DNA from: Pseudomonadota bacterium
GTDB lineage: Bacteria; Pseudomonadota; Alphaproteobacteria; JACQOE01
Direction: 5' to 3'
Assembly: GCA_016202695.1 (NCBI GenBank)
Contig: JACQOE010000094.1
Span: 1 to 64,000 of the forward strand
DNA length: 64,000 nt
The translations under genes and the position numbers were made by a program. The notes below the pieces were generated by a model. It saw only the letters and a list, made by a program, of their open reading frames with translations, did no database searches and had not been told where the DNA came from. Below, piece after piece: positions 15,810 through 20,469 of the stretch. The stretch's first letter is position 1. Each line of letters begins with the position of its first letter.

Positions 15810-16580
15810 CTAGCCCCGCCCGGCGGCCGCCCCCAGGTAGATGGCGCGGACGCGGGGATCCGCGCGCACCGCCTCGGGCGCGCCCTCGGCAATCAGCCGG
15901 CCGCGATCGAGGACCAGCACCCGCCGGGCGTGGCCGAAGACCACGTCCATGTCGTGCTCGGTGAAGAGGACGCCGATCGCGCGCTCGGCCACGATAACCT
16001 CGACCAGCTCCATCAGGCGGAAGCGCTCGCCCGGGGCGGCGCCGGCGGTGGGCTCGTCCATGAGCAGGAGCTCGGGCTCGCCCACCAGCGCGACCGCGAG
16101 CTCGACGCGCTTGAGATCGCCGTGCGAGAGGACGCCGCAGTTGCGCCCGGCCTCGGCCAGCAGCCCGACCCGGGCGAGGAGGGCGTCGGCCTGGTCGCGG
16201 AACGCCTCGCCGGCGGGCGCGACCAGCGCCCCCAGCCGCCGGGCGCGGGAGAGGAGCGCCACCTGCAGGTTCTCGCGCACGCTCATCGAGGCGAAGGTGG
16301 CCGGGATCTGGAAGGTGCGCCCGACGCCCAGGCGCCAGATCGCGTGCGGGGCGAGGCCGAGAAGCTCGCGCCCCTTCAGCCGCGCGCTCCCCGCGTCCGC
16401 CCGGAGCTGGCCGTTGAGGAGGTTGAAGCAGGTCGTCTTGCCGGCGCCGTTGGGGCCGATGAGGGCCACCATCTCGCCGGCCCCGAGCTCGAACGACACC
16501 CCGTCCAGCGCGGCAAGGCCGCCGAAGCGCTTGGCGAGGCCGCCGACCGAGAGGAGCGCGCCCTCGCCCCCGCCGCTCAT
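15810..16580 (-). CDS. livG: ABC transporter ATP-binding protein, LivG-type
   Basis: A 256-residue ATPase of a branched-chain amino acid/amide type importer (HAAT family). Walker A is GPNGAGKTT, the signature helix is LSHGDLKRVELAVAL, Walker B is LLLMDEPTAG, and the switch His is in VLFTEHDMDVVF. Its ATG overlaps the stop of the fused permease gene by 4 nt (ATGA), so the two are translationally coupled. The usual partner ATPase LivF does not follow: the next gene on this strand is the GT2 gene about 100 nt away. Either LivG works as a homodimer here or LivF is encoded elsewhere. Confidence 0.88.
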   Translation of the reverse strand: MSGGGEGALLSVGGLAKRFGGLAALDGVSFELGAGEMVALIGPNGAGKTTCFNLLNGQLRADAGSARLKGRELLGLAPHAIWRLGVGRTFQIPATFASMSVRENLQVALLSRARRLGALVAPAGEAFRDQADALLARVGLLAEAGRNCGVLSHGDLKRVELAVALVGEPELLLMDEPTAGAAPGERFRLMELVEVIVAERAIGVLFTEHDMDVVFGHARRVLVLDRGRLIAEGAPEAVRADPRVRAIYLGAAAGRG

Positions 16581-18436
16581 CCGCCCCTCCCCGGCGCGCC
16601 GCGCCGGTGCCCGCCGAGCCCGGCGAGGAAGCCCCCGAGCCCGTGCGGAAAGGCGAGCACGAGGCCGACGATGACGAGGCCGAGATAGAGGCGCCAGAAG
16701 TCGGTCGCGGTCGCGATCCCGATCTGCAGCAGCTTGTAGGCGAGCGCGCCGAGGAGCGGCCCGGAGAGCGTGCCGACCCCGCCCAGGAGCAGCATCACCA
16801 GCCCGTCGAGCGAGATCGGCACCCCGAGCGCGGCCGGGAACACGCTGCCCTTGAAGAAGGCGTAGAGCCCGCCGGCGAGCCCGGCGAAGCCGCCGGCCAG
16901 CGCGAAGGCGAGCCAGCGCCAACGGATCACGTCGATGCCGATCGCCTCGGCCCTGAGCGCCGAGTCGCGCGCGGCGCGAAGCGCGTAGCCGAAGGGGGCG
17001 AAGACGATCCGGCGAAGAAGGAACAGGGCGGCGGCGACCAGGGCGAGGGCGAGGTAGTAGAAGCGCGCCCCTCCCGCCGCCCACGCCGGCGGCCAGACGC
17101 CGAGGATGCCGTTGTCGCCGCCGGTGAGCGCGGACCACTGGAAGGCGACGGCGAACAGGATCTGGGCGAAGGCAAGGGTCAGCATGGCGAGGTAGATGCC
17201 GGAAAGCCGGACGCAGAACCAGCCGAGCACCAGCCCGCCGACGAGCGCCGCCGCCGGGGCGAGGAGGAGCGCCGGCCCGAGCCCCCAGCCGAGGGCCTTG
17301 GCGGCGAGCGCCGCCGCGTAGGCGCCGAGCCCGAAATAGGCGGCATGGCCGAACGAGACCAGCCCGCCGATGCCGACCAGGAAATGCAGGCTGGCGGCGA
17401 AGAGGGCGAAGATCAGGATCTCGGTGAGGACGCCGAGATGGTACTCGCCGAGGAGGAGCGGCGCGCCGAGGAGGAGGAGCGCGAGCGCCGCCCAGCCGGG
17501 CCCGATCCCGCGCCGCGGCGGGGCGAGGGACGCGCGCTCCGCCGGCCCCTCGCGGGCGATCCCCTCCGCCCGCCCCAGGAGCCCCTGCGGGCGGAGCACC
17601 AGCACCACCGCCATCACCAGGAAGACGAGGACCAGGGTGAGATCGGGGAAGAGGACGATGCCGAAGGCGTGAAGCTCGGCGATCAGCACCGCGGCGAGGA
17701 ACGCGCCGAGCACGCTCCCCATGCCGCCGACGACGACCACGACGAACGCCTCGACGATGACCTCGACGTCCATCGCCGCGTGCGCGGCGCTTCTCGGGAT
17801 GGCGAGCGCGCCCCCCAGCCCGGCGAGGGCGGCGCCGATGGCGAACACGGCGGTGAACAGCCAGGCCTGGTCCACCCCCAGCGCGCCGACCATGTCGCGG
17901 TCCTCGGTCGCGGCCCGCACCAGCACCCCGAAGCGGGTGCGATGGAGCATCAGCCAGAGGAGACCCAGCACCGCCGGGCCGAGGGCGAGGAGGAAGAGGT
18001 CGTACTCGGGAAGCTGATGGCCGAGGAGCCGGACCGAGCCGCCCAGCCCCGGCGCCCGCGGACCCACGAGCTCCTCCGGACCGAAGAGCCACAGCACCGC
18101 GTCCTCGGCGATGAGCGCGACGCCGAAGGTGGCGAGGAGCTGGAACAGCTCGGGCGAGCCGTAGAGCCGGCGGAGCAGCGTCGCCTCGAGCCCCGCCCCC
18201 AGCGCCCCCACCGCCAGCGCCGCGAGCGCGAGCCCGGCCCAGAACCCGAGCGGCCCCGCCCCCAGCCGCGCGATCAGGGCGTAGGCGAAGTAGGCGCCGA
18301 GCATGTAGAGCGCGCCGTGGGCGAAGTTCACCACCCGGGTCACGCCGAAGATGAGCGACAGCCCCGCCGCCACCAGGAACAGCGAGCACGCCCCGGCGAG
18401 CCCGGTCAGGAACTGGACGACGAGGAAGTCCAACAT
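16577..18436 (-). CDS. Fused LivH-LivM ABC transporter permease
   Basis: A 619-residue inner-membrane permease in which both HAAT permeases are joined in one frame. Residues 1-290 are LivH-like (LIFGVTRVVNFAHGALYMLG, later GGMGSVLGAFLAA). After a linker of about 50 residues, residues 340-600 are LivM-like (VGIGGLVSFGHAAYFGLGAY, LSGIYLAMLTLAFAQ, GGVGTLSGPLLGA). No stop or frameshift separates them. Start is ATG 18436, with a GGGGAGGGG Shine-Dalgarno just upstream. A 274-bp repeat element ends only about 10 nt upstream of that site. Substrate is unknown: branched-chain amino acids, amides or urea are possible. The binding protein at 19240-20469 is on the same strand. Confidence 0.88.
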   Translation of the reverse strand: MLDFLVVQFLTGLAGACSLFLVAAGLSLIFGVTRVVNFAHGALYMLGAYFAYALIARLGAGPLGFWAGLALAALAVGALGAGLEATLLRRLYGSPELFQLLATFGVALIAEDAVLWLFGPEELVGPRAPGLGGSVRLLGHQLPEYDLFLLALGPAVLGLLWLMLHRTRFGVLVRAATEDRDMVGALGVDQAWLFTAVFAIGAALAGLGGALAIPRSAAHAAMDVEVIVEAFVVVVVGGMGSVLGAFLAAVLIAELHAFGIVLFPDLTLVLVFLVMAVVLVLRPQGLLGRAEGIAREGPAERASLAPPRRGIGPGWAALALLLLGAPLLLGEYHLGVLTEILIFALFAASLHFLVGIGGLVSFGHAAYFGLGAYAAALAAKALGWGLGPALLLAPAAALVGGLVLGWFCVRLSGIYLAMLTLAFAQILFAVAFQWSALTGGDNGILGVWPPAWAAGGARFYYLALALVAAALFLLRRIVFAPFGYALRAARDSALRAEAIGIDVIRWRWLAFALAGGFAGLAGGLYAFFKGSVFPAALGVPISLDGLVMLLLGGVGTLSGPLLGALAYKLLQIGIATATDFWRLYLGLVIVGLVLAFPHGLGGFLAGLGGHRRGAPGRGG

Positions 18437-18446
18437 CGCCCCTCCC

Positions 18447-18720
18447 CTAGAGCCATTTCCTATCGGATTGTACCGGCTGCGTTGCTCGCGGGCGAGGCGA
18501 TCCGCTAGTCGCGCCGCTAAGTGGGTTGCGGGGCATTCGGTCGGGCGGCGCATCGCCGCGGGCGCCCGCCCCCGCTCAAACCCATGGGGCGGGGAGATTT
18601 CTCGCCGTGGGTTCGTCGACGGGCTTGACCGTAGTCCCCGCTACGCCCTTCGCCCGTCTCCTGCCCACGTCGAAAAATCTCCTCGGCGCAGCGATTCAAT
18701 CCGATAGGAAAAGGCTCTAG
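18447..18720. repeat. 274-bp element with terminal inverted repeats and internal hairpins
   Basis: The ends are 24-bp inverted repeats with one mismatch across CTAGAGCC[A/T]TTTCC and TATCGGATTG (18447-18470 and 18697-18720). Inside, 18594-18611 pairs with 18664-18681 (16 of 18 bases), GACGGGC (18618-18624) pairs with GCCCGTC (18652-18658), and GTAG (18631-18634) with CTAC (18641-18644). These nest into one long stem-loop. There is no ORF of transposase size. It looks like a MITE or a structured repeat, and it abuts the livHM ribosome binding site. Confidence 0.7.
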
Positions 18721-18836
18721 TGCACGTTCATGCCGAGCGCAAACCCCACGGTCCGGGGTCATGGCCGGGCTTGGTTCACGATTGTCCGGTTCGGCAAAAT
18801 CGGTTGTGATCGGCGCCGCTTCCGCAGCTTGGAACC

Positions 18837-18931
18837 GTCATGACCGGGCTTGTCCCGGTCATCCACGTCTCCTCGGTCGGAGAGAAGGCGTGGATGGCCG
18901 GGACTCGGCCTTCGGCCGGCCCGGCCATGAC
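18837..18931. repeat. Long imperfect palindrome (GTCATG...CATGAC)
   Basis: A 95-bp inverted repeat. Its left arm, GTCATGACCGGGCTTGTCCC..., is complementary to the right arm ending ...GGCCCGGCCATGAC, with secondary hairpins around TCCTCGGTCGG and TCGGCCTTCGGCCG. Translations give MTGLVPVIHV and DGRD...PGHD peptides, the usual signature of a repeat family common in alphaproteobacterial intergenic regions. Confidence 0.75.
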
Positions 18932-19102
18932 CACCTGCGATGCGCGGAACCGCCGGTATCGACCCGTTTCCGGTGTCCAGAAATCGGAACCGGACAGCCG
19001 TGGTCATGGCCGGGCAGGACGGGGAGGTTGCACGCGGTCACGACGGAACCGCACGAGTGGCGAGAGTCTGACGGATGAGACCCGGCGCGTACGCATTCGC
19101 TC

Positions 19103-19198
19103 GTCACCCCGGGCAAGCGGCGAAGCCGCGCGACCCGGGGGCCAGGCCGACGCTCGCCCCCCTGGACCCCGGCTCTCGCTTCGCTCGGCCGGGGTGAC
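19103..19198. repeat. Palindromic intergenic repeat, copy 2 (core inverted)
   Basis: A 96-bp block with the same GTCACCCC...GGGGTGAC ends as copy 1 at 23-117. Its outer arms match the reverse complement of copy 1, while the downstream flank (CATCTGTTTG, then GATCCACTA) matches in direct orientation. The middle 20 bp differ. The downstream flank runs into the stop codon of the binding-protein gene on the other strand. Confidence 0.75.
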
Positions 19199-19239
19199 GA
19201 TGACAAAGGCGGCTGGGCCCATCTGTTTGCTTTGATCCA

Positions 19240-20469
19240 CTACCCGCCCGGGCGCAGCTCCTTCACCTTCTCCGGCCCGGGCAGATAGGTGGCGCCGTCG
19301 GCGAAGCGCCAGTCGGTCATCCGCCCCATGCCGCCCCGCACCGTGGTCCGGCCGAGGAAGGTGCCCATGGTCGACTGCTGGTCGCTGGCGCGGAAGGTGA
19401 TCGGGCCGAAGGGGGTGTCGAGGGAGAGCCCGCGCATCGCCCGGATCAGCGCCTCGGTGTCGGTGGAGCCGGCCTTGGCGATCGCCTTGGCGACCGTCTT
19501 GACGGTGACGTAGCCGACCACCGAGCCCATCCGCGGATAGTCCTTGAAGCGCGCCTCGTAGGCCGTGCGGAAGGCGACATGCGCCGGCGTCTCGAGCTGG
19601 TCGAAGGGATAGCCGGTGACGATCCAGCCCGCCGGCATCTCGTCCTTCAGGGGATCGCCCCACTCCGGCTCGCCGGTGAGCAGGCTCACCACCGGCCGGC
19701 CCCGGAACAGGCCGCGCAGGTTGCCCTCGCGCACGAACTTGGTGAGGTCGGCGCCGAAGGTGACGTTGAAGATCGCCTCCGGCTCGGCCAGCGCCAGCGC
19801 CTGCACGGTCGGGCCGGCGTCGATCTTGCCCAGCGCCGGCCACTGCTCGGCCACGAACTCGACGTCGGGCCGGCGCTCCCTGAGGAGGGCCTTGAACGCC
19901 TTCACCGCCGACTGGCCGTACTCGTAGTTGGGGGCGATCGTCACCCAGCGCTTCGCCGGAAGCTTCGCCGCCTCCTCGGCCAGCATCGCCGACTGCACGT
20001 AGGTGCCGGGGCGGAGGCGGAAGGTGAAGGGGTTGCCCTTCTCCCAGGCGATGGCGTCGGTCAAGGGCTCGGAGGCGAGGAACATCGCCTTCTTCTGATG
20101 GGCCACGTCGGCGACCGCGAGGCCGATGTTGGAGAGGATCGTCCCCACCAGCAGGTGCGCGCGCTCGCGCGAGAGGAGCTCGTTCGCCACCGTCACCGCC
20201 TGGCCGGGATTGCCGCCGTCGTCGCGCGAGATCAGCTCGAGCTTCCGCCCCAGCACCCCGCCGGCGGCGTTCACCTCGTCGACGGCGAGATGGAGGCCGT
20301 TGCGATAGGGAAGGGTGAAGGCGGCGAAGGTCGAGTAGCTGTTGAGGTCGCCGATCCGGATCGGGTCCTCGGCCCCGGCCGGGGCCGATGCCGCGCCGAG
20401 GCCGATCGCCGCCGCCGCGAGCGAGAGGAGAACGCCCCCGCCGCGGACCGGAACCCTGGGTGTCGTCAT
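19240..20469 (-). CDS. ABC transporter substrate-binding protein (LivK-type)
   Basis: Periplasmic binding protein of 409 residues for a HAAT-type importer. The N terminus has an RVPVRGG start, a hydrophobic signal core and a cleavage region near SAPAGAEDP. The mature start, IRIGDLNSYSTFAAFTLPYRNG, and the VNAAGGVLGRKLELISRDDGGNPGQAV stretch are typical of type 1 periplasmic folds (Peripla_BP_6). No lipobox Cys is present. The start is ATG 20469 with GGAAGG nine nt upstream. It lies 56 nt after the fused flavoprotein gene and 800 nt before the permease, all on one strand. Ligand unknown; the family binds amino acids, amides, urea and aromatic acids. Confidence 0.87.
   Translation of the reverse strand: MTTPRVPVRGGGVLLSLAAAAIGLGAASAPAGAEDPIRIGDLNSYSTFAAFTLPYRNGLHLAVDEVNAAGGVLGRKLELISRDDGGNPGQAVTVANELLSRERAHLLVGTILSNIGLAVADVAHQKKAMFLASEPLTDAIAWEKGNPFTFRLRPGTYVQSAMLAEEAAKLPAKRWVTIAPNYEYGQSAVKAFKALLRERRPDVEFVAEQWPALGKIDAGPTVQALALAEPEAIFNVTFGADLTKFVREGNLRGLFRGRPVVSLLTGEPEWGDPLKDEMPAGWIVTGYPFDQLETPAHVAFRTAYEARFKDYPRMGSVVGYVTVKTVAKAIAKAGSTDTEALIRAMRGLSLDTPFGPITFRASDQQSTMGTFLGRTTVRGGMGRMTDWRFADGATYLPGPEKVKELRPGG

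Follow-up and report, generated by a model that had tools for sequence, protein, structure and literature searches.

In the available parts of PMC2229807, RUP of Streptococcus pneumoniae is described as a MITE of 107 bp linked to IS630-Spn1, and the CIR elements of Caulobacter and other alphaproteobacteria as repeats of about 110 bp that contain a conserved GANTC and whose ends do not pair with each other. The element analysed here lies in a 64-kb stretch of DNA (64,000 nucleotides, hereafter the window). Its family resembles RUP in being an intergenic non-coding repeat with IS630-like terminal inverted repeats (TIRs), TA targets and a stable fold (PMC2229807), whereas its length of about 270 bp, its two-hairpin core and its occurrence also with IS5-like and IS1380-like ends set it apart. 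With the CIR elements it has in common that it is an alphaproteobacterial intergenic repeat of two arms and a linker (PMC2229807), but besides its length it differs in that its ends pair and GANTC is rare in its cores. The CGTC-tagged REPs, as given in the accessible portion of PMC3733652, are 20-40 bp long with an unpaired CGTC tag; these REPs and REP dimers are hairpins common in alphaproteobacteria, often placed head to head and in some cases within longer palindromes, and like the present family they have no dedicated transposase (PMC3733652). The window element in contrast is bounded by TIRs, is 274 bp long, has TA junctions and a longer hairpin unit, and does not count as a REP by that description. 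The rhizobial RIME and the A, B and C motifs, compared by description only, are likewise intergenic palindromic repeats with conserved secondary structure (PMC2573895, in the part available). The family is not described in the available parts of PMC3733652, PMC2573895, PMC2229807 and PMC10969869, and neither the family nor a single MITE core with the ends of several transposase families was found in the open-access literature searched (subscription papers and ISfinder lie outside this scope).

A MITE is a known kind of element; the structured core with changed ends is apparently the new feature. We consider, with a probability of roughly 0.7, that the window element is a non-autonomous MITE whose two-hairpin core is common to elements with IS630-, IS5- or IS1380-like TIRs. 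MITEs are usually regarded as remnants of one insertion sequence. One core with the ends and junctions of three unrelated transposase families reverses this view, the core being the lineage and the ends replaceable, and raises the questions of which process of the host recognises the hairpins and by what route the two ends come to be exchanged jointly.

The element beside the permease gene

The whole element (18447..18720) carries no gene and is pseudo-palindromic. The covariance model R1, built from ten copies of two genomes with the window copy in its training set, scores 264.7 bits on the minus strand and 107.1 bits on the plus strand, so that minus is the better-scoring strand for R1. The two TIRs, each with an outer CTAG, lie at 18447..18475, adjoining the permease ribosome binding site, and at 18692..18720 on the binding-protein side. 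Their arms of 29 nt are 90% complementary and differ at one position over the outer 24 nt, hence the 24-bp inverted ends with one mismatch in the preliminary description are real. With up to 3 mismatches allowed, the TIR pattern occurs 2 times in the window against a mean of 0.00 in 100 shuffles, which together with the copies elsewhere in the genome rules out a chance palindrome. Folding, which had been proposed as a check, gave -161.8 kcal/mol for the minus strand of the element and -112.57 (sd 4.68, n = 200) for its shuffles, i.e. more stable than the 200 shuffles with z = -10.5. No tRNA or tmRNA was found in the 64-kb window.

At this end of the element the order is its own CTAG, then GGGAGGGG (18446 down to 18439) directly after its last base, then ATG at 18436. 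GGGAGGGG is a ribosome-binding-like stretch (18439..18446, minus strand) of a gene for a fused LivHM-type permease of 619 aa with two BPD_transp_2 stretches by Pfam (16577..18436, minus). Upstream of the element lies a Pfam-assigned periplasmic binding protein gene (Peripla_BP_6; 19240..20409, minus, start approximate). Both the abutment on the permease ribosome binding site and the placement between the binding-protein and permease genes had been noted before; we can add that both genes read on the minus strand. Among the permease relatives found, the best reach only 62-63% identity, too distant a relationship for defining the empty site of the window copy.

Such a very stable fold, at a site between co-directional genes beside a ribosome binding site, is what would be expected of a cis-acting regulatory RNA, whereby hairpins in the liv transcript would stabilise the upstream mRNA, undergo RNase III cleavage or restrict translation of the permease, with the element kept for this role. 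One purine-loop hairpin on each strand, described below, is also in keeping with it. Against it stand three observations: no terminator-like or sigma-70-like (promoter-like) site was found at 18380-19260, the annotated copies elsewhere adjoin unrelated genes, and the 26 representatives of the core show no G-U excess. We regard this explanation as unlikely.

In the same intergenic region, at 18753-19200, GTCATGGCCGGGCTTG is present three times (88-100%) along with TCGTCACCCCGGGCAAGCG, which has an inverted partner. These palindromic repeats resemble the CGTC-tagged REPs described for alphaproteobacteria.

Copies in this and other genomes

The assembly from which the window comes (the own genome) has 3.36 Mb in 100 contigs and is 87% complete. 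BLAST of the element against it gave 70 matches, many of which are one TIR matching the opposite TIR; the best 30 of the 70, taken as loci, merge into 28 places. The search for further copies that had been suggested thus yields at least 28 places, and the element is not a single-copy sequence. The degenerate TIR pattern with up to 3 mismatches has 41 sites in the own genome as against 0 for the reversed pattern, and at least 9 full-length R1 matches of 273-274 nt are present among the 20 candidates scored. By hand count 14 of the 200 contig ends fall inside copies, so the true number of copies is probably larger. Two subfamilies with 75-76% identity could be distinguished in the own genome, and their differences in the TIRs and the inner stems are compensatory. 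The usual length in the family is 268-276 nt, with TIRs of about 25-29 bp. Matches to the IS630 transposase (DDE_3, PF13358) numbered 0 in the own genome, which is to be read with the 87% completeness and the 14 contig ends inside copies; nor was DDE_Tnp_1 transposase found in this 87% complete assembly. A transposase in the same genome is no strict requirement for an IS630-mobilised MITE.

Of the 96 genomes examined from the same class (probably Alphaproteobacteria, to judge by the nearest permease relatives), 10 gave R1 matches at E <= 0.01, the own genome included; with a set of this size the filters were stricter and up to 20 candidates were scored per genome. Dropping genome G053, which has weak, G-rich matches only, leaves 9 of 96. 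Among ten genomes reached through named records, 3 had matches, namely a Rhodospirillales MAG (18), Rhodoplanes serenus DSM 18633 (18, both strands counted) and Roseococcus suduntuyensis (2, short), while R1 had no match in the other 7, including Bradyrhizobium liaoningense, Xanthobacter oligotrophicus, Caenispirillum bisanense and Roseospira navarrensis. Plasmid copies are present in Terrarubrum flagellatum, Agrobacterium sp. MA01, Sinorhizobium fredii SMH12 and Rhizobium sp. N731, with a short one (41.9 bits) in Rhizobium sp. SSA_523; BLAST against plasmids gave no match for the window element, nor for a copy from genome G055. In the N731 plasmid the TAG stop of an annotated acyltransferase gene forms the first bases of the copy (L332, 1501-1504). 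At the gathering threshold Rfam has 0 matches in the window and 0 in 12 loci with related copies, which rules out identity with an Rfam family; the single sub-threshold match is at chance level. Of the conservation as a known RNA family across distant species that had been named as a counter-indication, only the presence of the core in other genomes of the class was found, and the match to a known family was not. For annotation the family is relevant in that it is absent from Rfam, breaks assemblies and adjoins genes.

Junction signatures follow the end classes

Core-bearing elements have at least four clear kinds of ends, which are GAGC (window copy, S. fredii and others), GAGCCxGTTT or IS5-like (Terrarubrum, Rhodoplanes and the own-genome locus L024), TACCAA (Agrobacterium, the Rhodospirillales MAG and others) and GCCCxxATTTCTC (G055). 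The ends of two more core copies, L230 and L251, could not be assigned to a class. L024 (contig 48, 1337-1612; 132.3 bits) is a core copy with IS5-like TIRs that is co-resident with the GAGC-ended copies.

Leave-class-out profile HMMs, which use sequence only and whose training set was the cores of every class except the one tested, with 26 nt trimmed per end, gave 57-84 bits on three TACCAA cores, 65-70 bits on two GCCC cores, 40-41 bits on two IS5-like cores and 44-46 bits on the two unplaced cores (L230 and L251). On 17 GAGC cores the range was 8-100 bits, with three below 13. In each of the five tests, 0 of 102 structure-preserving randomised controls scored. Plain BLAST of a GAGC-ended copy against copies with other ends gave E values of 1e-5 and 1e-4. 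As judged from these sequence comparisons, the cores are shown to be homologous across TIR classes independently of the fold.

The junctions were counted by class, with L251 left out and L024 not placed by the script; by eye the flanks of L024 differ (TGA and TTA). In the GAGC class TA is two-sided in 35 of 59 copies and present at 91 of 118 ends, with a 3-bp direct repeat in 0 of 59, and the GCCC class similarly has two-sided TA in 6/6 and a 3-bp direct repeat in 0/6. The typical TA junction is mostly of the form YTA-element-TAR, and the window copy has CTAG at each end. It may be added that IS630 prefers TA within CTAG and that some IS5 groups make a TNA duplication. An exact 3-bp TNA repeat flanks 9 of 13 TACCAA copies, a number reached by 0 of 5000 partner shuffles, with TNA at 25 of 26 ends; for the IS5-like class the exact 3-bp repeat is found in 5 of 9 (reached by 95 of 5000 shuffles) and TNA at 16 of 18 ends. 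The junction signature is thus shown to track the TIR class, being either a TA core (IS630- and IS1380-like) or a 3-bp TNA duplication (IS5-like and TACCAA). A 4-bp CTAG duplication was considered for the GAGC class and rejected, since L006, L012 and L016 have TTAG at one flank and CTAA or CTAG at the opposite one, which is no 4-bp repeat. In genome G366 (L147, contig 104, 1501-1918) a different, 207-bp TAGAGCG-ended element is nested in a family copy at an internal CTAG; it has CTAG on both sides, and the sister copy has a single CTAG. Also, genome G028 contains a 138-bp TAGAGC-ended element (L138, 1388-1525) with a different interior of two near-perfect hairpins.

Insertion sequences with corresponding ends were found for three of these kinds, their families being named by curated models. 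The one from Mesorhizobium sp. INR15 (1058 bp, GAGC ends) is an IS630 whose C-terminal ORF scores 134 bits to NF033545; the one from G055, the same genome as the GCCC-ended elements, is an IS1380 of 1648 bp (405 bits); and the one from Gluconobacter is an IS5 of 888 bp with TTAGAGCCTGTTTGG ends (226 bits). TIR identity to the IS630 is 22/28 for the window, 22/28 for own-genome C and 24/28 for G366, and to the IS5 it is 21/25 for Terrarubrum, 22/25 for Rhodoplanes and 18-19/25 for L024; as these partners were found via the G366 and Terrarubrum TIR queries, the independent tests are the window, own-genome C, Rhodoplanes and L024. Identity to the IS1380, a partner picked by a TIR scan of transposase loci, is 17/20 and 16/20. 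The matches to IS630, IS1380 and IS5 were equalled by no background window, and for the window TIR against the INR15 IS630 none of 3910 background windows was as good. A co-resident IS630 in genome G007 is no closer to the G007 MITE TIR than background (16/28, reached by 7 of 3910 windows). TIR-like letters of the TACCAA class overlap IS630-annotated Rhizobium genes; an IS630-borne origin of this class is not supported, as the partner ends reach at most 16/24 and the class shows TNA duplications.

The suggestion of a MITE made in the preliminary description is upheld by the many copies, the TIRs, the junction TA, the nested insertion that is lacking in a sister copy, and the IS630 with matching ends. 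From the ends and junctions, an IS630-type transposase acting in trans would have inserted the window copy into a TA lying between the genes for the binding protein and the permease. One may ask whether this is simply an ordinary IS630 MITE family, its long hairpin the usual habit of MITEs, its other ends a product of gradual drift within one transposase superfamily, and its core without a special role. TA junctions, as seen in the GAGC and GCCC classes, and the IS630-like TIRs fit such a family, and end-to-end folding is common in bacterial MITEs according to the part of PMC2229807 available. Yet the exact TNA duplications of the TACCAA and IS5-like classes against 0/59 in the GAGC class, the TIR identities to insertion sequences of the IS5 and IS1380 families, and the co-occurrence in the own genome of GAGC-ended copies with a copy bearing IS5-like TIRs speak against drift within one superfamily, and we consider it improbable.

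The two-hairpin core

The order of parts in the element is TIR, hairpin I, small hairpin, hairpin II and TIR. Hairpin I (18600..18678, minus strand), with purine-rich internal loops and covarying stems, scores 84.5 bits with a hairpin model built from 13 hairpins, the window hairpin included. It incorporates the internal stem 18594-18611 with 18664-18681 that had been seen earlier. Hairpin II (18491..18570, plus strand; 37.4 bits with the same model) is an inverted copy of the hairpin I unit. This model recovers the two window hairpins on opposite strands, and hairpin II, once reverse-complemented, resembles hairpin I as if both were copies of a single unit. With a single purine-loop hairpin on each strand, the element looks the same in both orientations. 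The family is shown to be multi-copy, with TIRs, junction TA and a core in which one hairpin is present twice in inverted orientation. The CcrM methylation site GANTC is found in 8 of 70 cores as against 44.2 in shuffles, i.e. rarer than expected, which together with the 274-bp length and the end pairing rules out identity with a CIR element.

In the alignment of 13 hairpins, both partners have changed in 13 of 18 pairs. In an alignment of 10 sequences built without structural information, pairing holds in 96.4% of 925 cells, and 22 pairs show both-sided change. The covariation score of this alignment is 0.214 as against 0.092 in shuffled (reached in 0 of 500) and at most 0.053 in slid versions. 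Four of the five pairing measures on the 10 sequences lie above all 500 shuffles and the slid versions, and the fifth, further pair types, is not above the shuffles (reached by 170 of 500). The structure counts exclude the five G053 loci, which are weak and G-rich, and draw on the remaining 70 of 75 loci, from which 26 representatives were picked by hand. In these 2208 of 2379 cells pair and at least 3 pair types are seen in 78 of 93 pairs, the alignment being fitted to the model; unguided folds recover 1760 of the 2379 consensus pairs, unevenly, from 31/89 (L159) to 84/93. The structured nature of the repeat, proposed at the outset, is borne out by these compensatory changes.

Compensation could also arise without selection if the arms of a palindrome were corrected against each other by template switching, in which case covariation would be uninformative on function. 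TIR arms and stems indeed change together within each subfamily, and the loop columns overall hardly exceed the paired columns in conservation, with a mean pairwise identity of 0.58 vs 0.51 in hairpin I and 0.59 vs 0.58 in hairpin II. Particular unpaired letters are nevertheless kept while the stems turn over; one letter is retained in at least 85% of the 26 representatives in 19 unpaired columns (of a total that is not stated) vs 12 of 93 paired 5′ columns. As simple arm correction should erase internal mismatches, these letters argue against template switching, which we hold to be doubtful as the explanation.

The conservation of the core suggests that it may serve something common to its carriers and independent of the transposase. 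We consider possible, at a little less than even odds, a portable structured core that persists over long evolutionary times by TIR exchange, carried in turn by IS630, IS5 and IS1380, with a transposase-independent job. The ratio of G-T to A-C in hairpin I is 81:32 on the 70 related copies, which is suggestive, but the effect is gone on the 26 representatives (26:14 in hairpin I vs 17:11 in the TIRs, p = 0.80), and RNA is not separated from DNA by these counts. The hairpins may act as DNA, as a cruciform or a single-stranded hairpin at the replication fork that is read by a host protein or matches the ends by arm copying, to which we give somewhat under half of the weight. Speculatively, arm-to-arm copying would let a new end gained on one side spread to the other. 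Action as RNA in host transcripts comes second to the DNA reading and is possible at odds well short of even; what weight is left goes to hairpins without function beyond descent. Longer variants of 336-341 nt are L322 and L324 of Rhodoplanes serenus and L142 of G366 (1501-1841), the last of which has an insertion within hairpin I.
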